A stretch of 64,000 nt of DNA from Panopea generosa (Eukaryota > Mollusca > Bivalvia > Adapedonta > Hiatellidae): positions 15,924,787 through 15,988,786 of the forward strand of contig CM055895.1 of NCBI GenBank assembly GCA_029582155.1, in the 5' to 3' direction. Shown here in pieces: positions 1-54,170 of the stretch (position 1 is its first letter; every line of letters starts with the position of its first letter). The notes beneath the pieces are model-generated. The model saw nothing but the letters and a program-made list of their open reading frames with translations, did no database searches and had not been told where the DNA came from. The position numbers and the translations under genes are program-made.

Positions 1-3000
1 GAACAGACTCATCAGTAACACTCATAAGATGGCTTATACAGAACAGAACAGACTCATCAGTAACACTCATATCATGGCTTATATAGAACAGAACATACTC
101 ATCAGTAACACTCATATGATGGCTTATATAGAACAGAACAGACTCATCAGTAATACTCATATGATGGCTTATATAGAACAGAACAGACTCATCAGTAACA
201 CTCATAAGATGGCTTATATAGAACAGAACAGAATCATCAGTAACACTCATATGATGGCTTATATAGAACAGAACAGAATCATCAGTAACACTCATATGAT
301 GGCTTATATAGAACAGAACAGAACACTCATCAGTAACACTCATATGATGGCTTATATAGAACAGAACAGAAACATCAGTAACACTCATAAGATGGCTTAT
401 ATAGACCAGAACAGACTCATCAGTAACACTCATATGATGGCTTGTATAGAACAGAACAGAATCATCAGTAACACTCATATGATGGCTTGTATAGAACAGA
501 ACAGACTCATCAGTAACACTCATATGATGGCTTATATAGAACAGAACAGATTCATCAGTAACACTCATATGATGGCTTGTATAGAACATAACAGACTCAT
601 CAGTAACACTCATATGATGGCTTATATAGAACATAACAGACTCATCAGTAACACTCATATGATGGCTTATATAGAACAGAACAGACTCATCAGTAACACT
701 CATTTGATGGCTTATATAGAACAGAACAGACTTATCAGTAACACTCATTTGATGGCTTATATAGAACAGAACAGACTCATCAGTAACACTCATTTGATGG
801 CTTATATAGAACAGAACAGACTCATCAGTAACACTCATATGATGGCTAATATATAACAGAACAGAATCATCAGTAACACTCATATGATGGCTTGTATAGA
901 ACAGAACAGACTCATCAGTAACACTCAAATGATGGCTTATATAGAACAGAACAGAACATCAGTAACACTCATATGATGGCTTATATAGAACAGAACAGAA
1001 TCATCAGTAACACTCATATGATGGCTTATATAGAACAGAACAGACTCATCAGTAACACTCATATCATGGCTTATATAGAACAGAACAGACTCATCAGTAA
1101 CACTCATATGATGGCTTATATAGAACAGAACAGAATCATCAGTAACACTCATATGATGGCTTGTATAGAACAGAACAGACTCATCAGTAACACTCATATG
1201 ATGGCTTATATAGAACATAACAGAATCATCAGTAACACTCATATGATGGCTTATATAGAACAGAACAGACTCATCAGTAACACTCATTTGATGGCTTATA
1301 TAGAACAGAACAGACTCATCAGTAACACTCATTTGATGGCTTATATAGAACAGAACAGACTCATCAGTAACACTCATATGATGGCTTGTATAGAACAGCC
1401 AGAATCATCAGTAACACTCATATGATGGCTTATATAGAACATAACAGAATCATCAGTAACACTCATATCATGGCTTATATAGAACAGAACAGACTCATCA
1501 GTAACACTCATATGATGGCTTATATAGAACAGAACAGATTCATCAGTAACACTCATATGATGGCTTATATAGAACAGAACAGACTCATCAGTAACACTCA
1601 TATGATGGCTTATATAGAACAGAACAGACTCATCAGTAACACTCATATGATGGCTTATATAGAACAGAACAGACTCATCAGTAACACTCATATGATGGCT
1701 TATATAGAACAGAACAGACTCATCAGTAACACTCATATGATGGCTTATATAGAACAGAACAGACTCATCAGTAACACTCATATCATGGCTTATATAGAAC
1801 AGAACAGACTCATCAGTAACACTCATATGATGGCTTATAGAGAACAGAACAGACTCATCAGTAACACTCATAAGATGGCTTATATAGAACAGAACAGACT
1901 CATCAGTAACACTCATATGATGGCTTATATAGAACATAACAGAATCATCAGTAACACTCATATGATGGCTTATAGAGAACAGAACAGACTCATCAGTAAC
2001 ACTCATAAGATGGCTTATACAGAACAGAACAGACTCATCAGTAACACTCATATCATGGCTTATATAGAACAGAACATACTCATCAGTAACACTCATATGA
2101 TGGCTTATATAGAACAGAACAGACTCATCAGTAATACTCATATGATGGCTTATATAGAACAGAACAGACTCATCAGTAACACTCATAAGATGGCTTATAT
2201 AGAACAGAACAGAATCATCAGTAACACTCATATGATGGCTTATATAGAACAGAACAGAATCATCAGTAACACTCATATGATGGCTTATATAGAACAGAAC
2301 AGAACACTCATCAGTAACACTCATATGATGGCTTATATAGAACAGAACAGAAACATCAGTAACACTCATAAGATGGCTTATATAGACCAGAACAGACTCA
2401 TCAGTAACACTCATATGATGGCTTATATAGAACATAACAGAATCATCAGTAACACTCATATCATGGCTTATATAGAACATAACAGAATCATCAGTAACAC
2501 TCATATGATGGCTTATATAGAACAGAACAGAATCATCAGTAACACTCATATGATGGCTTATATAGAACAGAACAGAATCATCAGTAACACTCATATCATG
2601 GCTTATATAGAACATAACAGACTCATCAGTAACACTCATATGATGGCTTATATAGAACAGAACAGAATCATCAGTAACACTCATATGATGGCTTGTATAG
2701 AACAGAAGAGACTCATCAGTAACACTCATATGATGGCTTATATAGAACATAACAGACTCATCAGTAACACTCATATGATGGCTTATATAGAACATAACAG
2801 AATCATCAGTAACACTCATATCATGGCTTGTATAAAACAGAACAGACTCGTCAGTAGTGCTCATATGATGGCTTCTATAGAACAATACAGACTCATCAGA
2901 AACACTGGTGTTATGGCTTCTATAAAACAGACCATACTCATCAAAAACACTCATGTGATGGCTTGTATAGAACAGAACAGACTCATCAGTAACACTCATA

Positions 3001-5366
3001 TGATGAATTCTATAGAACAGAACAAAACAGATTAATCAGAAACACTCATGTGATGGCTTGTATAGAACAGAACAGACTCATCAGTAACACTCATGTGATG
3101 GCTTATATAAAACAGAACAGACTTATCAGTAACACTCATATGATGGCTTATATAGAACAGAACAGACTTATCAGTAACACTCATATGATGGCTTATATAG
3201 AACAGAACAGACTTATCAGTAACACTCATATGATGGCTTGTATAGAACAGAACAGACTCATAAGTAGCGCTCATATGATGGCTTCTATAGAACAATACAG
3301 ACTCATCAGAAACACTCATGTTATGGCTTCTATAGAACAGACAAAACTCATCAAAAACACTCATGTGATGGCTTGTATAAAACAGAACAGACTCATCAGT
3401 AACATTCATATGATGAATTCTATAGAACAGAACAGACTTATCAGTAACATTTATATGATGGCTTATATAGAACAGAACAAAACAGACTTATCAGTAACAC
3501 TCATATGATGGCTTGTATAGAACAGAACAAAAGAGACTCACCAGTTACACCCATATGAAAGCTTATATAGAACAGGACAAAACAAACTCATCAGAAACAC
3601 TCATATGATGGCTTATATAGAACAGGACAGAACAGACTCATAAGTAACACTCATATGATGGTTTATTTAGAACAGAACAGAGCAGATGCATCAGTAACAC
3701 TGATATGATGGCTTGTATAGAACAGAACTGAACAGAACAGACTAATCGGTAACATTTATATATGATTGCTTATATAGAACAGAACAGACTCGACTCATCA
3801 GTAACACTCATGTGATGGCTTATATAGAACAGAACAGAATCATCAGGAACACTCATATGATGGCTTGTATAAAACAAAACAGACTCATCAGTAACACTCA
3901 TATGATAACTTGTATAGAACAGAACAGACTCATCAGTAACACTCATATGATGGTTTATTTAGAACAGAACAGAGCAGATGCATCAGTAACACTCATATGA
4001 TGGCTTGTATAGAACAGAACTGAACAGAACAGACTAATCGGTAACATTTATATATGATTGCTTATATAGAACAGAACAGACTCGACTCATCAGTAACACT
4101 CATGTGATGGCTTATATAGACAGAACAGAATCATCAGGAACACTCATATGATGGCTTGTATAAAACAAAACAGACTCATCAGTAACACTCATATGATAAC
4201 TTGTATAGAACAGAACAGACTCATCAGTAACACTCATGTGATGACTTATATAGACAGAACAGAATCATCAGGAACACTCATATGATTGCTTATATAGAAC
4301 AGAACAGACTCATCAGTAACACTCATATGATGGCTTTTATAGAACAGAACAGACTCATCAGTAACACTCATGTGATGGCTTTTATAGACATAACAATATC
4401 ATCAGGAACACTCATATGATGGCTTGTATAGAACAGAACAGACTCATCAGTAACACTCATATGATGGCTTATATAGAACAGAACAGATTCATCAGTAACA
4501 CTCATGTGATGGCTTATATAGAACAGAACAGAATCATCGGTAACACTCATATGATGGCTTGTATAGAACAGAACAGACTCATCAGTAACACTCATATGAT
4601 GGCTTGTATAGAACAGAACAGAATCATCAGTTACATTCATATAATGGCTTGCATAGAACAGAACAGAATCATCGGTAACACTCATATAATGGCTTGTATA
4701 GAACAGAACAGAACAGAACACTCATCAGTAACACTCATATGATGGCTTGCATAGAACAGAACAGAATCATCGGTAACACTCATATAATGGCTTACATAGA
4801 ACAGAACAGAACACTCATCAGTAACACTCATATGATGGCTTGTACAGAACAGAACATAACACTCACCAGTAACACTCATATGATGGCTTGTACAGAACAG
4901 AACAGAACACTCATCAGTAACACTCATATGATGGCTTATATAGAACAGAACAGATTCATCAGTAACACTCATGTGATGGCTTATATAGAACAGAACAGAA
5001 TCATCAGTAACACTCATATGATGGCTTGTATAGAACAGAACAGACTCATCAGTAACACTCATATGATGGCTTGTATAGAACAGAACAGAATCATCAGTAA
5101 CACTCCTATAATGGCTTGCATAGAACAGAACAGAATCATCGGTAACACTCATATAATGGCTTGTATAGAACAGAACAGAACACTCATCAGTAACACTCAT
5201 ATGATGGCTTGCATAGAACAGAACAGAATCATCGGTAACACTCATATAATGGCTTGTATAGAACAGAACAGAACACTCATCAGTAAAACTCATATGATGG
5301 CTTGTACAGAACAGAACAGAACACTCATCAGTAACACTCATATGATGACTTATATAGAACAGAATA
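1..5366. repeat. 45-bp satellite array, about 119 copies
   Basis: Tandem units of 45 bp built around the segment cagtaacactcatatgatgg run from the first base to about 5366, so the array continues beyond the left edge. Units 1-2820 are homogeneous; units after about 2820, and especially 3500-4400, are more diverged and include length variants. Higher-order copies are visible: variant units at 1-430 recur in the same order at about 1982-2410; a block at about 2855-2990 recurs about 405 bp later (nine units); a block at 3660-3790 recurs about 290 bp later; one at 4420-4520 recurs about 470 bp later. The period is 15 codons, so one frame on each strand stays open for hundreds of codons. Unit-to-unit differences mostly change the amino acid on both strands, which argues against a protein. 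Confidence 0.97.
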
Positions 5367-20744: not shown

Positions 20745-23700
20745 TTGAAGTATAAACATACATACTGTATTGTGATAACTGTGTAAAGTATATTTACTGA
20801 TTAATGAGTGTGTAAAATAAATTTGCTGCATAATATGTGTGTAAAGTATATTTACTGCATAATATGTGTGTAAAGTATATATACTGCCAATTATGTCAAG
20901 TATATTTACTGTATAATGAGTGTGTAAAGTAAATTAACTGCATACTATGTGTGTAAAGTATATTTACTGCATAATATGTGTGTAAGGCATATGTATTGTC
21001 TAATGAGTGTGTGAAGTATATTTACTGTATAATGATAGTGTAAAGTATATTCATCGTATTATAGGTTTATAAAGTATATTTACAGTATAATGAGTGTGTA
21101 AAACACATTTACAGCATAACATGTGTGTGAAGTATACTTACTGTATAATGAGTGTGTAAAGTATATTTACTGTATAATAAGTGTGTAAGCCAAATTTAAT
21201 GCATAATATTCGTGTAAAGTAAATTTACTGCGTAATATGTGTGTAAAGTATATTTACTGTATAATGAGTGTGTAAAGTTTATTTACTGCATAATATGTGA
21301 GTAAAGTATATTTACTGTATAATGAGTGTGTAAAGTTTATTTACTGCATAATGAAAGTGCAAAGTATGTTTACTGCGTATATGTGTGTCAAGTATATTTA
21401 GTATGTAATATTGTGTGTAAAATATATTTACTGTATAATGAGTGTGCAATATATATTGACTGTATGATGAGAGAGCAAAGTATATTTACTGTATAATGAG
21501 TGTGTAAAGCATATTTACTGCATTATATGTGAGTAAAGTATATTTACTGTATAATGAGTGTGTAAAGTATATTTACTTCATAATGAGTGTGTAAGGCATG
21601 TTTACTGCATAATATTCGTGTAAAGTATATTTACTGCGTAATATGTGTGTAAATTATATCAACTGTATAATGAGTGTGTAAAGTATATTTACTGCATAAT
21701 GAATTTGCAAAGTATGTTTACTGTGTGTAAAGTATATTTACTACGTAATATTGTGTGTAAAATATATTTATCGTATTATAGGTTTATAAAGTTTATTTAC
21801 TGTATAATGAGTGTTTAAAGTATATTTACTGTATAATATGTGTGTAAAGTATATTTACTGCATAATGAGTGTGCAAAGCATATTCACTGCATAATGAATT
21901 TGCAAAGTATGTTTACTGTGTATATGTGTGTAAAGCATATTTACTACGTAATATTGTGTGTAACATATATTTATCGTATTATAGGTTTATAAAGTTTATT
22001 TACTGTATAATGAGTGTGTAAAGTATATTTACTGCATAATATGTGTGTAAAGTATATTTACTGTATAATGAGTGAGCAAAGTATACTAACTGTATACTAT
22101 GAGTGTAAAGTATATTTACTGTATAATGAGTGTGCAAAGTATATTTACTGTATAATGAGTGTGCAAAGTATATTTACTGTATAATGAGTATGTAAAATAT
22201 ATTTACTGTATAATGAGTGTGCAAAGTATATTTACTGTATAATGAGTGTGTAAGGTATATTTACTGCATAATATTCGTGTAAAGTATTTTTACTGCATAA
22301 TATGTGTGTAAAGTATATTTACTGCATAATATTCGTGTAAAGTATATTTACTGCATAATATGTGTGTAAAGTATATTAACTGTATAATGAGTGTGTAAGG
22401 CATATTTACTGCATAATATTCGTGTAAAGTATATTTACTGCGTAATATGTGTGTAAAGTATATTTACTGTATAATGAGTGTGTAAAGTATATTTACTGCA
22501 TACTGAGTGTGTAAAGTATATTTACTGTATAATGAGTGTGTAAAGTATATTTACTGCATACTGAGTGTTCAAAGTATGTTTTCTGTGTAATATGTGTGTA
22601 AAGTATATTTACTGTATTATGAGTATGTAAAGTATATTTACTGTATAATGAGTATGTAAAGTATATTTACTGTATAATGATTATGTAAAGTATATTTACT
22701 GTATAATGAGTGTGTAAGGCATATTTACTGCATAATATTCGTGTAAAATATATTTACTGCATAATATGTGTGTAAAGTATATTTACTGTATAATGAGTGT
22801 GTAAGGCATATTTACTGCATAATATTCGTGTAAAGTATATTTACTGCGTAATATGTGTGTAAAGTATATTTACTGTATAATGAGTGTGTAAAGTATATTT
22901 ACTGTATAATGAGTGTGTAAAGTATATTTACTGTATACTGAGTGTTCAAAGTATGTTTTCTGTGTAATATGTGTGTAAAGTATATTTACTGTATTATATG
23001 TATGTAAAGTATATTTACTGTATAATGAGTGTGCAAAGTATATTTACTGTATAATATGTGTGTAAAGTATATTTACTGTATAATGAGTGTGCAAAGTATA
23101 TTAACTGTATAATGAGTGTGCAACATATATTTACTGTATAATGAGTGTGCAAAGTATATTTACTGTATAATATGTGTGTAAAGTATATTTACTGTATAAT
23201 GAGTGTGCAAAGTATATTAACTGTATAATGAGTGTGCAACATATATTTACTGTATAATGAGTGTGCAACATATATTTACTGTATAATGAGTGTGCAAAGT
23301 ATATTAACTGTATAATGAGTGTGCAACATATATTTACTGTATAATGAGTGTGCAACATATATTTACTGTATAATGAGTGTGCAAAGTATTTTTACTGTAT
23401 AATGAGTGTGCATCATATATTTACTGTATAATAAGTGTGTAAAGTATATTTACTGTATAATGAGTGTGCAAAGTATATTTACTGTATAATATGTGTGTAA
23501 AGTATATTTAGTGTATACTGAGTGTGCAAAGTATATTTACTGGATAATGAGTGTGCAAAGTATATTAACTGTATAATGAGTGTGCAAAGTATATTTACTG
23601 CATAATATGTGTGTAAAGTATATTTAGTGTATACTGAGTGTGCAAAGTATATTTACTGTATAATGAGTGTGCAAAGTATATTTACTGCATAATATGTGTG

Positions 23701-23830
23701 TAAAGTATATTTAGTGTATACTGAGTGTGCAAAGTATATTTACTGTATAATGAGAGTGCAAAGTATATGTAATGTGTAATGAGTGTGTAAATATACTTGC
23801 TGAAAATGTTAAGTATATTTAGTGTATAAA
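20745..23830. repeat. 29-bp satellite, about 105 copies
   Basis: Units contain gtgtgtaaagtatatttact followed by gtataatga. Common variants have gtgtgcaaag, gcataatatgtg or attcgtgtaaag. Runs of variant units repeat in order (for example about 22380-22520 and 22800-22930; 23090-23190 and 23190-23290), showing higher-order duplication. The array lies within the last BK intron and resumes as a degraded remnant at 24880-24985 after a mariner insertion. Confidence 0.95.
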
Positions 23831-24879: not shown

Positions 24880-27800
24880 ATATACTGTATAATAAAACTA
24901 TATTTACACTTTTATTACTGCACAAAGTATATTTACTATATACTGAGTTTGTAAAGGTTATTTACTGCATGCTCTGTTCGTAAATAATATTTATTGTTTA
25001 ATGAGCTTGTAAAATATATATTTCTATAATGAGTGTTTAATGAGTGTGTAAAATATACATTTCTATAATGAGTGTTTAATGAGTGTGTAAAATATAAATT
25101 TCTATAATGAGTGTTTAATGAGTGTGTAAAATATATATTTCCATAATGAGTGTTTAATGAGTGTGTAAAATATATATTTCTATAATGAGCGTGTAAAAAT
25201 ATATATTACTATAACGGTTTGTAAAATATATATTTCTATAGAAAGTGTTTAATGAGAATGTAAAATATATATTTCTATAATGAGTATTTAAAATATATAT
25301 ATTTCTATAATGAGTGTGTAAAATATATATTTCTATAATAAGTGTTTAATGAGTGTGTAGGTTATATATTTCTATAATGAGTGTTTAATGAGTGTGTAAA
25401 ATTTAAATTTCCATAATGAGTGTTAAATGAGTGTGTAAAATATATATTTCTATAATAAGTGTTTAATGAGTGTGTAAAATATATATTTCTATAATGAGTG
25501 TGTAAAATATATATTTCTATAATAAGTATTTAATGAGTGTGTAAAATATAAATTTCCATAATGAGTGTTAAATGAGTGTGTAAAATATATATTTCCATAA
25601 TGTGTGTTAAATGAGTGTGTAAAATATATATTTCCATAATGAGTGTAAAATGAGCGTGTAAAATATATATTTCTATAATGAGTGTTTAATGAGTGTGTAA
25701 AATATATATTTCCATTATGAGTGTTTAATGAGTATGTAAAATATAAATTTCCATAATGAGTGTTAAATGAGCGTGTAAAATATATATTTCTATAATGAGT
25801 GTTTAATAAGTGTGTTAAATATATATTTCTATATTGAGTGTTTAATGAGCGTGTAAAATAAATATTTCTAAAATGAGTGTTTAATGAGCGTGTAAAATAT
25901 ATATTTCCATAATGAGTGTTAAATGAGCGTGTAAAATATATATTTCTATAATTAGTGTTTAATGAGTGTTCTATAATGAGTGTTTAATGAGCGTGTCAAA
26001 AATATTTATATTATGAGTGTTTAATGACCGTGTAAAATATATATTTCCATAATGAGTGTTAAATGAGCGTGTAAAATATATATTTCTATAATTAGTGTTT
26101 AATGAGTGTTCTATAATGAGTGTTTAATGAGCGTGTCAAATATATATTTATATTATGAGTGTTTATTGAGCGTGTAAAATATATATTTCCATAATGAGTG
26201 TTAAATGAGCGTGTAAAGTATATATTTCCATAATGAGTGTTAAGTGAGCATGTAAAGTATATATTTCTATAATGAGTGTTTAATGAGTGTTTAAAATATA
26301 TATTTCTACAATGAGTGTTTAATAAGTGTGTAAAATATATATTTCTATAATGAGTTTTTAATGAGTGTGTAAAATATATTTTTCTATAATGACTGTTAAG
26401 TGAGTGTGAAAAGTATATATTTCTATAATGAGTATGTAAAGTATATATTTCCATAACGAGTGTTAAATGAGTGTGTTAAATATATATTTCTATAATGAGT
26501 GTTTAATGAGTGTGTTAAACATATATTTCTATAATGAGTGTTTAATGAGCGTGTAAAATATAAATTTCTATAATGAGTGTTTAAAATATATATTTCTATA
26601 ATGAGTGTTTAATGAGTGTGTAAAATATATTTTTCTATAATGAATGTTTAGTGAGCATTTAAAGTATATATTTCTATAATGAGTGTTTAAAATATATATT
26701 TCTATAATGAGTGTTTAATGAGCATGTAAAATATATATTTCTATAATGAGTGTTTAATGAGTGTGTAAAATATATTTTTCTATAATGAATGTTTAGTGAG
26801 CATTTAAAGTATATATTTCTATATTGAGTGTATAAAATCTATATTTCTATAATGAGTGTTTAATGAGCATGTAAAATATATATTTCTATAATGAATGTGT
26901 AAAATATATTTTTCTATAATGAATGTTAAGTGAGCATTTAAAGTATATATTTCCATAATGAGTGTGTAAAATATATATTTCTATAATGAGTGTTAAATGA
27001 GTGTGTTAAATATATATTTCTATAATGAGTGTTTAATGAGTGTGTTAAATATATATTTCTATAATGAGTGTTTAATGAGTGTGTTAAATATATATTTCTA
27101 TAATGAAAGTTTAATGAGCGTGTAAAATATATATTTCTATAATGAGTGTTTAAAATATATATTTCTATAATGAGTGATTAATGAGCATGTAAAATATATA
27201 TTTCTATAATGAGTGTGTAAAATATATTTTTCTATAATGAATGTTTAGTGAACATTTAAAGTATATATTTCTATAATGAGTGTATAAAATATATATTTCT
27301 ATAATGAGTGTTTAAAATATATATTTCTATAATGAGTGTTTAATGAGCATGCAAAATATATATTTCTACAATGAGTATTTAATGAGTGTGTAAAATATAT
27401 TTTTGTATAATGAGTGTTAAGTGAGTGTGTTAAATATATATTTCTATAATGAGTGTTTCATGAGTGTGTAAAATATATATTTCTATAATGAGTGTTTCAT
27501 GAGCGTGTAAAATATATATTTCCATAACGAGTGTTAAATGAACTTGTAAAATATATATTTCTATAATGAGTGTTTTATGAGTGTGTTAAATATGTTTTTA
27601 TAATGAGTGTTTAATGAGTATGTAAAATATGTATTTCTATAATGAGTGTTTAATGAGTGTGTTAAATATATTTTTTATAATGAGTGTTTAATGAGTATGT
27701 AAAATATGTATTTCTATAATGAGTGTTTAATGAGTATGTAAAATATATATATTTCTATAATGAGTGTTTAATGAGTGTGTTAAATATATTTTTATAATGA

Positions 27801-27960
27801 GTGTTTAATGAGTATGTAAAATATGTATTTCCATAATGAGTGTTAAATGAGCATGTAAAACATATATTTCTATAATGTAATATAATGTAAAATATTTATT
27901 TCTGTAATGAGTTTTTAAAAAAGTGTGCAGGATATATTTTCTGTATAATGAATGTGTATA
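24880..27960. repeat. About 39-bp satellite related to the 29-bp array
   Basis: 24880-24985 is degraded 29-bp material. From about 24990 the unit is tataatgagtgtttaatgag followed by tgtgtaaaatatatatttc (39 bp), with a shorter 28-bp variant lacking the middle tttaatgagtg. Both share taatgagtgtgtaaa and the TATATTT-like end with the neighbouring 29-bp satellite, so one probably arose from the other. Higher-order copies are visible, for example 25900-25990 and 26045-26130, and 26580-26660 and 26690-26790. Together with 20745-23830 it fills about 40% of the last BK intron. Confidence 0.92.
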
Positions 27961-37431: not shown

Positions 37432-37510
37432 CTGTATAATAGAGAAATAACCACTATAATACATGTTATAACAAATACACATACCATAACTATATTATGA
37501 GGTGTGTTAA

Positions 37511-37745
37511 CCCTTTACTTCATATAGGCGCCATTAGACACCTCTAATATAGACGCCTTTGGACACCTCTTATATAGAAGGCTTTTGAATTATTGGGTGA
37601 ATTATGTTTATATTAACTGACAGTGTGGAAAACAGTGCAGAAAGTGTTCAGATTGCTCGTTACGAGCAATCTGAACTCTTCCAGCACTGTTTTCAAAGGC
37701 CTTCTGTAATTGGTGTGGGAAAACGCGTATCTATGGAGTAAAGGG
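37511..37745. mobile_element. piggyBac-like MITE, copy 2 (TTAA flanks)
   Basis: Begins ccctttacttcatataggcg and ends tctatggagtaaaggg, with TTAA at 37507-37510 and 37746-37749. It keeps the central hairpin (gattgctcgttacgagcaatc) and contains two to three internal copies of a 'cctttggacacctctt' motif. Located in a BK intron, opposite orientation to copies 1 and 3. Confidence 0.85.
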
Positions 37746-38128
37746 TTAAAAAGAATATGTGGATTATTTCAATAATCCAAACTTGCAGGTTAATTTCGAT
37801 AAAATTGCATAAACACCTATCAGAACAGAAACTGTTGATGCATTTATCTGCATAGGCATAATATGATTTTGATCAATGATGACAACTGTGAACACATTCG
37901 AAGCTGCCAGGTAACATGCATCCAAAACAGTAAAAAAAAAAATACTTGGAAAAGATTGTTCATGTTTTTACAAGATTGCGAGGCCAAAATGATGCCAAAT
38001 TTCACCTGCTGATAATGTGCATTATGGACAATAGACATGTCATCACAATTACAACTCACTCATTAAAGGGCTTTATTCATCACAAGGAAAAACAAAAATT
38101 GCATGAGAACGTGTGTTGTCTGATTTAA

Positions 38129-38332
38129 CCCTTAACTCCATAGATACGCGTTTTCTCACACCAATCACAGAAGGCCTTTGAAAACAGTGAAGGATGAACA
38201 CTTCCTGCACTGTTTTCCACTCTGTCAGTTAATATAAACATAATTCACCAAATAATTCAAAAGCTTTCTATATTAGGTGTCCAAAGGCGTCTATATTAGA
38301 GTTGTCCAAAGGCGTCTATATGAAGTAAAGGG
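38129..38332. mobile_element. piggyBac-like MITE, copy 3, hairpin lost
   Basis: Starts cccttaactccatagatacg and ends tatatgaagtaaaggg, with TTAA at 38125-38128 and 38333-38336. The left arm of the central hairpin is missing: aaaacagtgaaggatg runs directly into aacacttcctgcactg. It lies only 380 bp from copy 2. Confidence 0.85.
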
Positions 38333-38336
38333 TTAA

Positions 38337-47380: not shown

Positions 47381-47693
47381 TAATCATTTTATTATTTCAG
47401 ATATCAAAATAAAAACTATATTTATTTACATATCATCACATACTACATTAAAATTAAAATGTTCCAAAACTTTAATAAAAGATAATAATATAAGTAAAAT
47501 ATCTTTAGACAAAATTGGATATGATTCACTCCCATGTTGCTCTCAAATCAGATCTTGGCAAATTATTTCTTTCTTAAGTTTAGGCCAGTTCTTTTGTTGA
47601 AAAATGTTTGTTTCAATTCAAGCTTTCCCTAAAGAAACAAAACCGTTTCAACTACCAAACTTCAGCTGGTAATTGTCTCAATCCCACTTGCAT

Positions 47694-48122
47694 GGGGTGT
47701 CGTAGTATGTCACAGTGTGAAGTGATTTGTTCACAGACATGCAACAGATTTGCTCACAGTTATGGTCATAAATTGTTTACACAATATTGACAGGAGATAT
47801 ATAAAAGAAACGAAAACAAAGCCGGCACCATGAATCTGAGTTGGGAATTAAGCAGTTGCCTATGGCAACTAATCCATTTCATCTCTGACATGACAAAATG
47901 ACTATATCAAGGCGTCATTAAATACTACACTTTCTTATCATGTTTTCTATTATGTTTGTTTACTCACTGCTTTAACTAATTATTCATTTTGTAACTATTT
48001 TTGAAGTATAATCTATTCTTGGAATATTGCAACCAATCTGCAAGAACCCAGAGCCAAATTTTAACTAATCCGTTGCATTACTGTGAACAAATCACTTCAC
48101 ACTGTGACATACTATACACCCC
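47694..48122 (-). mobile_element. Compound inverted-repeat element family Q, short copy
   Basis: 429 bp with inverted ends of about 55 bp: ggggtgtcgtagtatgtcac, then agtgtgaagtgatttgttca, at 47694, mirrored by gaacaaatcacttcacactg, then tgacatactatacacccc, at 48122. The interior shares, in reverse, the order of the copy at 52494-53994: one unit of caatattgtgtaaaca-type text (47775-47805), ttcatggtgccgg-type text, and gcagttgcctatggcaacta at 47850. No coding remnant. Non-autonomous DNA element; superfamily unknown. Confidence 0.82.
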
Positions 48123-49117
48123 AAGACTTGATTTGCTGTGACATACTATACACCCCGGGACTTGATTTGCTATGACATACTATACACCACAGGACTTGAT
48201 TTGCTGTGACATACTATACACCCCGGGACTTGATTTGCTATGACATACTATACACCCCAGGACTTGATTTGCTATGACATACTATACACCCCAAGACTTG
48301 ATTTGCTGTGACATACTATGAACCCCGGGGCTTGATTTGCTGTGACATACTATACACTCCAGGAATTGATTTGCTGTGACAAACTTTACACCCCAGGACT
48401 TGATTTGCTGTGACATACTATACACCCCAAGACTTGATTTGCTGTGACATACTATACATCCTGGGACTTGATTTGCTGTGACATTCTATACACCCCGGGA
48501 CTTGATTTGCTGTGACATACTATACACTCCAGGAATTGATTTGCTGTGACATATAAAACACTCCGGGACTTGATTTGCTGTGACATACTATACACCCCAA
48601 GACTTGATTTGCTGTGACATACTATATATCCTGGGACTTGATTAGCTGTGACATACTATACACTCCGGGAATTGATTTGCTGTGACATATAAAACACCCC
48701 GGGACTTGATTTGCTGTGACATACTATACACCCCAGGACTTGATTTGCTGTGACATACTATACATCCTGGGACTTGATCTGCTGTGACATATTTTACACC
48801 CCAGGACTTGATTTGCTGTGACATACTATACACCCCGGGACTTGATTTGCTGTGACATACTATGCACCCTGGAACTTGATTTGCTGTGACATACTATACA
48901 CCCTGGGATTTGAATTGCTATGACATACTATACACCCCTGAGACTTGATTTGCTGTGACATACTATACACCCCTGAGACTTGATCTGCTGTGACATACTA
49001 TACATCCAAGGACTTGATTTGCTGTGACATACTATACACCCCAGGACTTGATTTGCTGTGACATACAATACAACCCGGGACTTGATTTGCTGTGACATAC
49101 TATACACCTCGGTCCTT
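48103..49117. repeat. 34-bp minisatellite seeded by the element's end, about 30 copies
   Basis: The unit is tgtgacatactatacacccc followed by gggacttgatttgc. Its first 20 bases are exactly the terminal 20 bases of the element that ends at 48122, and the remaining 14 bases would be the flank. Most variation is at the ccggg/caagg/cctgg position. Confidence 0.95.
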
Positions 49118-49339
49118 AATTTGAATCACTAGAACAGAAGTAAATTTGGCCAAATAATTATGAAAAAATTTGGTTGGCCAGCTCTTGGGAAGAGGAATTT
49201 TGAAAAATCACAATTTTTCCAGAGTCTGACGAAAAACATGGCGAGTACATAACCTGTAGCCTTAGATTCTACCATTATTTTAAAATCCACCTGCATTACT
49301 ATCAATCTCACTAAATACACACACTTCTTAGGTAAAATA

Positions 49340-50790
49340 AGCACAAAGAGTAGACCAAGATTGCTGGGTCACACATCTGATTGCTGGGACACACACATCT
49401 TAGGTAAAACATACACATTAAGTAGGTCAAGATTGCTGGGTCACACATCTGATTGCTGTGACATGCATCTGATTGCTGGGACACACACATCTGAGGTAAA
49501 ACTTAAACACCGAGTATAGAAGAAGATTACCCAGACACATTCATCTGAGGTAAAACTTAAACACTGAGTATAGACGAAGATTACTCACATCTAAGGTATA
49601 TATCTCTATGACGCACGCAGGCACGCACGCACGCACGCACGCACACACATCTGAGGTAAAAATTAAACACTTAGTTTAGACCAAGATTACCTAGACACAC
49701 ACATCTGAGGAATATATATATCTACGACACACACACACATCTGAGGTAAAACTTAAACACTTAGTATAGACCAAGGTTACCCAGACACATACATCTGAGG
49801 TATAAATTTTTTTGACACATACACATTTGAGGTAAAACAATGTACAATGCGTAGAGATTGTTTGGACACACACACACACAAACGCACATTTTAGGTAAAT
49901 TATGCACCATGAGAAGCCCAAGATACCTTCCCCCACCCACCAACACATACACAACTTAGATAACACATGGGTGATTGGACACACATACACATCTGAGGTA
50001 AATTATGCATAATGATTAGCCCAACATACACCCCACCCATCCACATAAACAACTTAGATAACACATGCGTGATTGGACACACAAACACATCTGAGGTAAA
50101 TTATGCATAACGATTAGCCCAAGATACACCCCACCCACCCACATAAACAACTTAGATAACACATGCATGATTGGACACACATACATATCTGAGGTAAATT
50201 ATGCATAATGAGTAGCCTAATATACCCCCCCCCCCCACCCATACCCCAACACACACACACACATACACACATCTTAGGTAAAACATGTATGATTGGACAC
50301 ACATACACATCTGAGGTAAATTATACATAATGAGTAGCCCAAGATACACCCCACATGCAGCAAACAGTACCCAACTTATGTAAAGCATGCATGATTGGAC
50401 ACACATACACATCTGAGGTAAATTAGGAATAATGAGTAGCCCAAGATACCCCCCCCCCCCCCCCATTACACACACACATATCTTAGGTATAACATGCATG
50501 ATTGGACACACATACACATCTGAGGTAAATAATGCATAATGAGTAGCCCAAGATACCCTCGCCCCCACCCACCAAACACACACACATATCTTAGGTAAAA
50601 CATGTATGATTGGACACATATACACATCTGAGGTAAATTATGCATAATAAGTAGCCCAAGATACCCCACCAACCTCACCCCCAACACACACCTTAGGTAA
50701 AACATGCATGATTGGACACACATACACATCTGAGGTAAATTATGCATAATGAGAAACCCTCCACACACACACACACACCTTCAGTAAAAC
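49340..50790. repeat. Complex tandem repeat, about 100-120 bp units, with CA, CACG and C runs
   Basis: From about 49970 to 50770 a unit with gattggacacacatacacat, ctgaggtaaattatgcataa and gagtagcccaagatac recurs eight times at spacings of 98 to 121 bp. Differences come mostly from C runs (for example 50225-50236, 50451-50463) and CA runs. 49340-49970 holds shorter, older relatives (gattgctgggacacacac; catctgaggtaaaacttaaa) and a (cacg)n stretch at 49611-49645. Confidence 0.88.
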
Positions 50791-52493
50791 ATGCACAATT
50801 AAGTTGGCAATTGAGTTGAGCTAAAAGAGATCTAACCACACGCAAATGGTCAGACAAATCAGTCCTATTAAACAAAAGGATAAGAAAATAAACTAATGAA
50901 AATATTAGTAATAATAGAATAAACATTTTTAAGCTGCTGTAACAACCAACTTTTATAATTTCTAGTTTTAAAAAACACACACCAATTAATTAAAGCACTT
51001 TAACTGATGAAGGCTTCAAATGACACAAATCTATTATTAATGCCATCTAAAGTGCATTTGGCTACAGCTACGTTAAATAAGAAAAGGTACATGTAATTGC
51101 AGGATCAAAATGTCACTGGTTTTCCTATTTTCTTAGGTAGAATACATGACTGTGTTGAACAAAGTTGCATGACTTTACAAAGGAGCCATGTTTCACTGAT
51201 AAAAATATTAGTGCAACATAATCTGTAACTGAAGATATTTCTTTTATAAAGAAACAAACAACTTGTTTATGAATGACAAACATTTTTGTAAATCTTTTGG
51301 CCTTGGTGCATTTGTAACAGCCAATACTTCTCTTAAACATGAAAAAATATTGTTTTATATATTGTTTTAAATCTGAATTTAATGATATGTAGTTTTAAAT
51401 GTAAGATAAAGTATTTTATATATGAGGATTTATATTCTAATCTGGCTGGTATAGTTTACCAAAATATTAATCGGCGTCACCTTTAATATATATTGGTTCC
51501 CGGGTGATGTGCACTCAACCAAAATAAAAACAGAATGCGGTTACCAGTTAGTTTCTCAGTTCTGCCCGGATACTAAAGGATAATTTTTTTTTTTATTCTA
51601 GCCTTAGTTTATATATATTTTAGTCAGATTAGAACATACTACCTCTTTTTTGTTTTTATGCTCATTACTTTGTATCTGGCGGTTTTGTATGCCCAGATAT
51701 GTTTTGATGTATATATGTATAAGTAATTTATGCATCTCTTCAGGAAATATATAAGATAATTCCTGGCATTTTTAATTAAAATGCCCATTTCAACTTACAT
51801 CTTGTTTTGTCATTACATCTTTACCATACAAGTGACTTTGGTCTATCCTTTTCATTGTTCATCATTTATTAAATCCGAAGTAACATAACAGTAATTCTAA
51901 TAGGCAAATCAGTTGCTTCACTGATGTCCTTGAGTATTAGAACGGTAGTTAGATATGTGCAAAGATAAAATGCATAACTTTTATATGGACAAAAAAAGTT
52001 TTTTTATTGGATTGAAAGGACATAAATACTGGTTATGCAGCTATAAACTGGACCTGTAATGTGCAAAAAATTTATCATTACAAGGCTACAATTTATCTTT
52101 TAGACGATCGAGCCCATCACTTGGATATATGTGTGGTAAAACCTGACAGATGTTCAAAAACAATCAGGTTTTTGGAACTAAGGTTTTAAAGTTCTGTACA
52201 GTTTGGTTAAGGAATAAAAAGAAGTTATCTGAAGAAATAACATGAAAGCAATTAAAATCCATATGCAATTAGCTAACACTTGAGTCTCTTTTATAGTTCA
52301 CAAATGTCATTAGCATGTCCTGTAAATTCAGAAATAATTAAATAAGCTCTCTCTCTCTTTCTTGGAATATGGTTAATCAATGCCAAGAAAACAAGTATAA
52401 AGCCAAGAAGCAATGTAAGAACGAGACAGGTTTAATGAGTCATTTATACTGAGAAAACCAGGAAGAAGGTTTTGCTTGGTAGTTCTCAGCACA
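50791..52493. other. AT-rich intron sequence
   Basis: No exon or repeat family recognised. 51475-51600 is somewhat less AT-rich, but no splice-flanked frame resembling the BK linker was found. Confidence 0.4.
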
Positions 52494-52888
52494 GGGTGTA
52501 TAGTATGTCACAGTGTGAAGTGATTCATTCACAGTTATGCAATGGATTAGTTAAATATTTGGTACTGGATTCTTGCAGATTGGTTGCCGTGAACACACAG
52601 CAGGATAGATTGCACCTCAAAATGGTTAGAAAAAATAAATACATAGTTAAACAATTATTTAAATAACAAACATAACAGAAAATACGATAAAAAAAGTGTA
52701 GTGAATGTTGCCTTTATATACTGTAGTCATTTTGTCATGTCGGAGATGCAATGGATTAGTTGCCATAGGCAACTGATAACTTCTCAACCCGGTGTTGTAT
52801 AGTATTTTGACCCCTCTGTGAAATGACCCCATGGTCAAATTACTATATAGTAAAATGACCTTGGTCATTTTACCGCTAAAGTAAATTG

Positions 52889-52889
<1 letters not shown>

Positions 52890-52925
<36 letters not shown>
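52890..52925. repeat. C36 homopolymer
   Basis: 36 uninterrupted C in the left arm of the nested palindrome. Confidence 0.9.
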
Positions 52926-52926
<1 letters not shown>

Positions 52927-53204
52927 CCTGATTTATCACCAATAAAGTTATTTTCATCTTAGTTTAAGGACAAATTATTGTTTATAATATAGAATTTAAA
53001 AAAACACACACATTTATTACTGTTTTATTATACCTATATCCCTTTACTTGGAAAGTGAAATTATTTGGTATTTTTAATCTATATTTGTGTGTTTTTTTAT
53101 TTTTTATCAAGAGATGTATCCATAAACAATAATTAGTCCTAAAAACTAAAATGAAAGTAACTTTACTGGTGATAAATCAAGGGGGGAGGGTCAATTTACT
53201 ATAT

Positions 53205-53227
53205 GGGGGGGGGGGGGGGGGGGGGGT

Positions 53228-53285
<58 letters not shown>
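53205..53285. repeat. G homopolymer, 81 bases with one T
   Basis: 81 bases of G with a single T at 53227, at the mirror position of the C tract in the right palindrome arm. The exact length in an assembly is unreliable. Confidence 0.85.
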
Positions 53286-53286
<1 letters not shown>

Positions 53287-53387
53287 CATTTTACTATAGC
53301 GGTAAAGTGACCCCATGGTCATATTACAATGGGGGTCAAAATACTATACGACACCGGATTCATGGTACCAGATTTGTTCTCTTTTCT

Positions 53388-53926
53388 TTTATGTATCTCC
53401 TGTCAATATTGTGTAAACAATTTATGTATCACCTGTCAATATTGTGTATACAATTTATGTATCTGTTGTCAATATTGTGTAAACAATTTATGTTTCACCT
53501 GTCAATATTGTGTAAACAATTTATATATCACCTGTCAATATTTTGTAAACAATTTATGTATCACCTGTCAATATTGTGTAAACAATTTATGTATCACCTT
53601 TCAATATTGTGTAAACAAGTTATGTATCTGCTGTCAATATTGTGTAAACAATTTATCTTCCACGTGTCAATATTGTGTAAACAATTTATGTATCACCTGT
53701 CAATATTGTGTAAACAATTTATGTTCCACCTGTCAATATTGTGCAAACAATTTATGTATCTCCTTTCAATATTAATATGTAAATAATTTATGTATTTCCT
53801 GTCAATATTGTGTAAACAATTTATGTATCACCTGTCAATATTGTGTAAACAATTTATGTATCACCTGTCAATATTGTGTAAACAATTTATGTATTTCCTG
53901 TCAATATTGTGTAAACAATTTATGAC
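53388..53926. repeat. 33-bp minisatellite inside family Q, about 16 copies
   Basis: The unit contains cctgtcaatattgtgtaaac followed by aatttatgtatca. The short family-Q copy has this segment once, in reverse, at 47775-47805, so the array is an expansion of element sequence. The unit is 11 codons, which keeps a plus frame open; not coding. Confidence 0.95.
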
Positions 53927-54170
53927 CAGAACTGTGACCTTATCTGTTGCATCACTGTGAACAAATCACTTCACGCTTAAACATACTATATACCACATGC
54001 TCATATGTAAGAAATACTAAATGATTTGCTTTCTTTCAAATTTTAACTAGTTAATTACTTCTTGTCTCATTTGATTAAAATCATTATGACAGCACATTTA
54101 CATGTACATGTATTCTCAATTCTCATCAATTCCAAATTCTGCAACCAGAATCATTATTGGGTAGTGTGTG

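Follow-up and report, generated by a model that had tools for sequence, protein, structure and literature searches.

A 64,000-nucleotide stretch of the Panopea generosa genome (the window; G000:C2:15924787-15988786) contains two oppositely oriented copies of a short transposon with inverted ends, referred to below as the 437-bp family, and two minisatellites that contain its sequence. The evidence presented here makes it very probable that this family, a miniature inverted-repeat transposable element (MITE), spread through the genome and that single copies then gave birth to minisatellites in place after insertion, in four of seven cases through duplication at short repeats, with later expansion, and without the element being the driver. 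The anatomy of the family and its 5-bp target duplication recur across the genome, and each array is private to a single copy. The window itself shows both sorts of array: one of 33-bp units internal to the long copy, with the direct repeat TTTAT at its breakpoints, and one of 34-bp units that extends from the end of the short copy into the host flank and has no repeat at its present breakpoints.

A dispersed family with inverted ends and a 5-bp target duplication

The 1.47-Gb assembly was searched for further copies. DNA searches scored only their best 40 candidates, so that the places analysed are a part of the family and not the whole of it. In total, 96 loci (L001-L060 and L064-L099) merged to 83 places, and 75 remained after removal of eight apparent duplicated regions, which we picked from shared flanks; for the analysis of the ends, a set of 76 places was used (83 minus seven duplicates). 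Likely duplicated regions, with identical end matches or shared flanks within a single contig, were seen at G000:C4:42651054-42955379, at C13:20451487 and 20576836, on C5 (three family copies) and at C18:26786547 and 27129838. Among the best 40 of 187 candidates from a query with the long copy's left portion, the 39 other body matches were 74-80% identical to the query. A 39-base piece of the inverted end matched the genome 94 times at three mismatches or fewer, compared to no match when read backwards, and the likeness of the inverted ends is therefore not a product of chance.

The loci were annotated with a 447-position profile, for which 21 copies within L002-L030 were chosen (mean identity among them 80.4%). 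Taking a profile start at position 5 or before and an end at position 443 or beyond as the cut for both ends, these were held by 41 of the 76 non-redundant places, the other 35 being without one or both. The span was 411-467 bp in 29 of the 41 two-ended places and 318-1510 bp in the remaining 12. The inverted ends are about 60 bp long and begin CACGGGGTGTATAG, with CACGGGGTGTATAGTATGTCACAGCGTGAAGTGATTTGTTCACAGTAATGCGACGGATTAG as the consensus end; this consensus starts CACGGGGTG, its third and fourth bases standing below 70% (CAT and CACA variants occur). At one locus (L033, 1496-1948) the two halves between the inverted ends are oppositely directed (profile 231-446 minus, 31-238 plus), as would result from an inversion of part of the element at its site.

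A target duplication of 5 bp was evident in the flanks of the 41 two-ended copies, where flank identity reached 0.707 versus 0.365 (standard deviation 0.032) after the right flanks had been shuffled. At 2-4 and 6-10 bp, identity stayed within two standard deviations of the shuffles. Flanks were exactly alike over 5 bp in 12 of the 41 copies, compared to 0.47 expected, and identical 4-mers were found in four, compared to 0.68 expected (shuffle maximum 5). The end CAC... had been fixed by us after reading the flanks of L001-L030; in the 21 of 41 copies that came from later loci, unread before the ends were fixed, 76 of 105 flank positions agreed. The duplicated targets look A/T-rich.

Reading frames in the short copy reach at most 48 amino acids, save one of 68 amino acids that by its coordinates lies mostly outside the copy, and those of at least 130 amino acids in the long copy fall within a G run and the array. 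No second end was encountered in about 6 kb of further sequence at each of three one-ended places (L034, L037 and L054), a result that involved no search with proteins; reading frames were listed at one of the three, and the longer non-repeat frame near L037 lies on the minus strand of L062. With inverted ends paired at a set distance, a fixed 5-bp target duplication and many short copies without long frames, the family is a MITE.

Most of the layout described by the original prediction, which had been made from the window alone, was borne out by this genome-wide comparison. The two opposite copies do share inverted ends (about 60 bp instead of the 55 bp proposed) and a common order of segments, which agrees with that of sister copies elsewhere; sizes were corrected from 429 to 435 bp for the short copy, from 1501 to 1510 bp for the long one and from 565 to 569 bp for an element nested in the latter. 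The short copy has the single 33-bp unit, and the long copy the roughly 16 units, ascribed to them. Subtraction of the extra 33-bp units (504 bp) and of the nested element from the long copy leaves 437 bp, so the 435-bp short copy represents, as proposed, a near-exact ancestral layout. The proposal of a transposable element family with true inverted ends agrees with the two-ended places and the end-piece matches given above, and the target duplication that it suggested looking for proved to be of 5 bp. Interiors shared without the ends, or ends never paired at a set distance, would have spoken against such a family; what the genome held was 41 of 76 places with both ends, most of them within a narrow range of spans.

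Arrays private to single copies

Arrays made of the family's own sequence were present in 6 of the 75 places, each derived from a different segment, and two of the six are those of the window. Beyond the window, five copies made arrays, with units of 21, 49, 56, 67 and 100 bp. Among the 62 places whose profile match covers the 33-bp segment, it is single in 61 and repeated in one, the long copy; for the 21-bp segment, 60 of 61 places have one unit. When the genome was searched for exact adjacent pairs of the 33-bp core, eight matches were obtained, all within the long copy of the window; no tandem pair was found elsewhere by this search, which changed units would escape. The first 11 units of the 33-bp array are 90.5% alike, compared to 80.4% among the 21 family copies of the profile.

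The 21-bp array (L020) has 11.6 copies of its unit. Seven exact triple matches were obtained for it, one being the L020 locus and six having other spacers; an exact 21-bp-spaced match at C5:2746343 likewise has a different spacer. On C11 (L044), a 67-bp unit composed of the inverted end and the next interior bases is repeated 14 times. A further array, of 104 copies of a 30-bp unit, begins about 100 bp past the one-ended profile match of L034 (from 1701; in the joined stretch it extends to 4832). Since the unit, only loosely similar to the 33-bp segment, could not be safely tied to the element, the array was left uncounted; counting it would add one.

The idea that copies of this family grow minisatellites from their own sequence thus stands for single copies, after their insertion, and fails as a trait of the family. 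A tandem core shared by the family was likewise rejected, the 33-bp unit being single in 61 of 62 places and its array found by exact search only in the long copy. For the internal arrays, this privacy to single copies points to birth after insertion.

Arrays across the junction between element and host

The unit of the 34-bp satellite consists of the terminal 24 bp of the short copy, the target duplication ACTTG and the bases ATTTG of host DNA, an origin absent from the original prediction. As the unit holds both an element end and host flank, this satellite was born at the junction between them after insertion. Three other arrays have the same kind of composition: one of 49 bp with 8 copies (L042), one of 100 bp with 2.6 copies (L032) and a 56-bp satellite at C9:31939649-31943458 (L114-L116), whose unit is the family end plus 20 bp of host flank and which would comprise about 68 units if unbroken (both of its ends were read, and its middle 2.7 kb was seen as pattern matches in a 56-bp register). 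Since the 34-, 49-, 56- and 100-bp units all hold host flank, the arrays postdate the insertions at those sites.

Pairs of a 12-base word from the element tip were searched in the genome (exact matches, gaps of 8-100). Family arrays appeared only on C2 (the window), C6, C9 and C11, beside unrelated arrays sharing the word. As 3-11 matches per strand came from the reversed control too, an array can be assigned to the family only by its flanking bases. The 100-bp array on C4 escaped this search, its first spacing being 129 bp and another unit having a changed base. In the exact pair searches the 34-bp satellite turned up only at the window.

Short direct repeats at the breakpoints

To compare the breakpoints, the sequence preceding each array was modelled from the family consensus, with the outer flank added for junction arrays. 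Direct repeats of 5-9 bp were present at the breakpoints of four of the seven arrays: TTTAT (5 bp, 33 bp apart at the array ends) for the 33-bp array, GATTAGTTC (9 bp) for the 21-bp array, GATTT (5 bp) for the 49-bp array and TGTGAACA (8 bp) for the 100-bp array. In the last two, one copy of the repeat lies in the host flank and the other in the inverted end. The other three had 0-3 bp of homology, with 3 bp at the 56-bp array and none at the other two, of 67 and 34 bp. In the consensus and two flanks, at periods of 20-100, homology of at least 5 bp occurs in 0.0095 of position-period pairs, which gives binomial chances of 2.7e-7 for four of seven and of 1.7e-5 for three of six, without the 21-bp case; both are optimistic, as the breakpoints were set by us after reading the sequences.

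These breakpoint data agree with the published model of Haber and Louis 1998 (via PMC3389668 and PMC6947457), according to which slippage or unequal crossing-over duplicates the sequence flanked by two direct repeats of 5-10 bp. Most arrays derived from transposable elements in the human genome are without such repeats, according to PMC3389668, and the three exceptions here are therefore not odd.

Array frequency on the elements and in their flanks

Arrays were counted when they had a period of at least 15 and at least 2.5 copies, a junction being defined as 50 bp at each end. The flanks of the 75 places contained 36 arrays in 129.6 kb of non-array DNA, that is 0.28 per kb. From this rate about 9.9 arrays were expected on or at the 75 elements and 7 were seen; at the junctions, 3 were seen versus about 2.1 expected. 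Two of the 7 are the window's own (one of them at a junction), and that of L090 belongs to another inserted element and was counted as touching. Loci L061-L063 and L100-L116 were outside this control. The window cases and the C9 array, having been found because they are arrays, are unfit for rate estimates. Enrichment of arrays within the elements or at their junctions was thus discarded, and with a rate not above that of the flanks the element does not stand out as a special source. The window is in any case rich in arrays, 17 of which (period of at least 15) cover 18.2 of its 64 kb; long ones have units of 45 bp (1-5364), 29 bp (20780-23802) and 28-39 bp (24924-27877).

These counts bear directly on an alternative in which the element does drive array birth, with transposase cutting or forming hairpins at the inverted ends, repair of the breaks seeding tandem copies of end plus flank, and the ends acting as hot spots. 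It could account for the four junction arrays with different units that each hold the element tip, and for the 67-bp array made of the inverted end itself. However, the junction excess amounts to 3 arrays against 2.1, one of the 3 coming from the window; two junction arrays break at direct repeats of 5-8 bp inside the inverted end and not at the cut site; and the fourth came from a search aimed at such arrays, which leaves it without a denominator. We consider element-driven birth unlikely, and equally doubt that transposon tips serve as recurrent satellite nurseries in which transposase breaks seeded the tip-plus-flank arrays (34, 49, 56 and 100 bp) at four loci. If they did, each insertion could found a new locus-specific satellite of up to about 68 units.

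Relation to known elements

The original prediction had pointed to the Pearl elements of bivalves as a possibly related architecture. Pearl and other HINEs, non-autonomous Helentrons of bivalves (PMC7492417), are also short dispersed elements with tandem repeats. However, as that source describes them, HINEs have subterminal inverted repeats, the Pearl core contains up to six repeats of about 160 bp and Helitrons make no target duplication, in contrast to the true inverted ends, the 5-bp duplication and the absence of a shared tandem core in the 437-bp family. Because Pearl is a Helentron, of a group described there as making no target duplication, and the present family makes one of 5 bp, the family is not Pearl; with 61 of 62 single units it also differs from Pearl and the HINEs in having no central tandem array. 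The same observations weigh on the broader proposal that the mobile unit includes a tandem-repeat core, which transposition carries along and varies, in the manner of Pearl and Helentrons or of tandem-repeat MITEs. In its favour, a segment from the right-hand portion of the element is present in 16 units in one copy. It is nevertheless largely contradicted by the data, the 33-bp unit being single in nearly all sampled copies, no second tandem place appearing in the exact genome search and the 437-bp family making a target duplication that Helitrons lack (PMC7492417), and we hold it to be very improbable.

Transib/RAG-like elements (PMC7204232) share with the family a 5-bp target duplication and ends starting with CAC. 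The end of the protostome RAG-like elements, CACTWMCAAACKTYKBB, differs from the family end CACGGGGTGTATAG, a comparison made with the RAG-like consensus only. Minisatellites in human copies of Alu and other transposable elements (PMC3389668, PMC6947457), whose birth at short flanking direct repeats was treated by Haber and Louis 1998 and by Jurka and Gentles 2006 (via the same two sources), resemble the present ones in being arrays in dispersed copies, some with direct repeats of 5-20 bp at their ends. The present arrays differ in residing in a DNA transposon whose outer flanks are also known, and in that several of them cross the junction between element and host. In the foldback-type element Tetris of Drosophila virilis (PMC4079207), inverted-end sequence can become a tandem array, as in the 67-bp array on C11; in the 437-bp family this happened in one copy and the inverted ends are otherwise not tandem.

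MITEs with tandem repeats of their own sequence include Xstir of Xenopus (Hikosaka and Kawahara 2004), miDNA4 (PMC9659126), by title the TR-MITEs of Donax trunculus (in the references of PMC7492417) and BrickBuilt of Porphyromonas (PMC4596501), which has a tandem repeat in the element at 19 places. In the present family, by contrast, each array belongs to one copy. Xstir, miDNA4 and the Donax TR-MITEs reportedly carry their tandem repeat in many copies. A text search (not a sequence search) of the literature on MITEs, minisatellite birth, Pearl/Helentron and Transib, which covered titles and the openings of abstracts and left subscription journals mostly uncovered, revealed no description of the family.

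Window copies and neighbouring elements

Features of the 437-bp family and associated repeats in the window (positions counted from its first nucleotide)
Feature	Positions	Strand	Remarks
Short copy, 435 bp	47691..48125	-	matches positions 3-445 of the 447-position profile
Long copy, 1510 bp	52490..53999	+	profile match
Target duplication ACTTG, 5 bp, short copy	47686..47690	.	side away from the satellite
Target duplication ACTTG, 5 bp, short copy	48126..48130	.	satellite side; now inside the 34-bp unit
Target duplication CTCAG	52485..52489	.	left of the long copy
Target duplication CTCAT	54000..54004	.	right of the long copy; 4 of 5 bases alike with the left CTCAG
Left inverted end of the long copy	52490..52550	+	
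Right inverted end of the long copy	53939..53999	+	
Lone 33-bp segment plus 6 flanking bases, short copy	47767..47805	-	query 321-359 of the short copy
33-bp minisatellite, 16.2 copies	53388..53924	+	inside the long copy
Nested palindromic element, 569 bp	52789..53357	.	another family; limits approximate
34-bp satellite, 30 copies	48102..49123	+	abuts the short copy

The element nested in the long copy has ends CCGGTGTTGTATAGTATTTTGACCCC and runs of 36 C and about 81 G. Its window copy matches its own reverse complement, and from its sequence it looks like a palindromic derivative of another family, for which 186 candidates were obtained and the best 40 scored. Its second end differs between the window copy and the six relatives read.

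Another family was represented by five copies bounded by TTAACCCTTWACT and AGTAAAGGGTTAA (TTAACCTTTTACT in L090), each with about 2-5 units of the 25-bp repeat TCTATATTAGAGGTGTCCAAAGGCG. Two of these copies lie in the window in opposite orientations (37507-37749 and 38125-38336), and the others in L090 (195-512), L004 (2456-2696) and L053 (155-421), that of L090 being inserted into a copy of the 437-bp MITE. This family does seem to carry a tandem core, and in this it is nearer to the original prediction than the MITE is.

Origin of the arrays

The preferred explanation, birth in place after insertion, can be laid out in steps. A non-autonomous cut-and-paste MITE of about 437-450 bp, with inverted ends of about 60 bp and a 5-bp target duplication, would have spread through the genome, and individual copies would then have given rise to minisatellites where they stood. 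In four of the seven cases, direct repeats of 5-9 bp would have bounded the duplicated sequence, which belonged to the element alone or to the element and its host flank; the duplication probably arose by replication slippage or unequal exchange at these repeats, and unequal exchange or slippage within the duplicate may later have expanded the arrays to between 2.6 and about 68 units. The element itself seems to be no driver in this process but ordinary DNA that happens to be well marked, within a genome rich in minisatellites.

Several points weigh against this explanation. Three of the seven arrays have only 0-3 bp of homology, so that short direct repeats are not the sole route. The breakpoints were placed by us at unit boundaries, and later turnover can alter them; the locus of the 100-bp array has in addition an extra internal duplication of about 30 bp. 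Near the 34-bp array, a 7-bp repeat, AATCACT, occurs 46 bp apart and could be the trace of an older unit, although an origin of the array from it would require the later loss of 12 bp. A cruder test, based on the longest run anywhere at a given period, gave a clear outcome for the 21- and 100-bp arrays alone: the share of other periods with an equally long run was 0.39 for 33 bp, 0.01 for 21 bp, 1.0 for 67 bp, 0.51 for 49 bp, 0 for 100 bp and 0.39 for 34 bp. The run at the breakpoint is the proper question, yet that test was chosen second, after the cruder one. Arrays of whatever origin enter the rate control, which would also overlook copies that arrays had ruined. The expansion step is inferred from a single assembly. 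Finally, no autonomous partner or transposase was found, the search having covered second ends in about 6 kb more at three one-ended places and reading frames at one of them.

Two further alternatives were weighed. An older 34-bp satellite, from which the element arose or into which it inserted, would explain why array and element abut, but it is extremely unlikely, because the unit includes ACTTG and the host bases that follow, the second ACTTG lies by itself at 47686-47690, beyond the opposite end of the element, and the satellite was confined to the window in the exact pair searches, as opposed to the dispersed end sequence. An assembly artefact, conceivable since tandem arrays and long homopolymers are error-prone, is hardly credible given units that differ by about 10% from one another, a segment order that agrees with sister copies and a contig spanning 100 Mb.

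Birth in place after insertion offers a clear natural example of how a minisatellite begins; it largely fits the existing view and involves no new kind of element. The family itself is an ordinary MITE, and its known ancestral sequence and insertion sites make it a good instrument for the question, as sister copies supply the sequence that preceded each array, which allows unit boundaries, homology at the breakpoints and the rate of birth to be read directly and compared with flanking DNA. In this small sample, birth at direct repeats of 5-9 bp is favoured for about half of the arrays, and the data point to no rate peculiar to transposon DNA.

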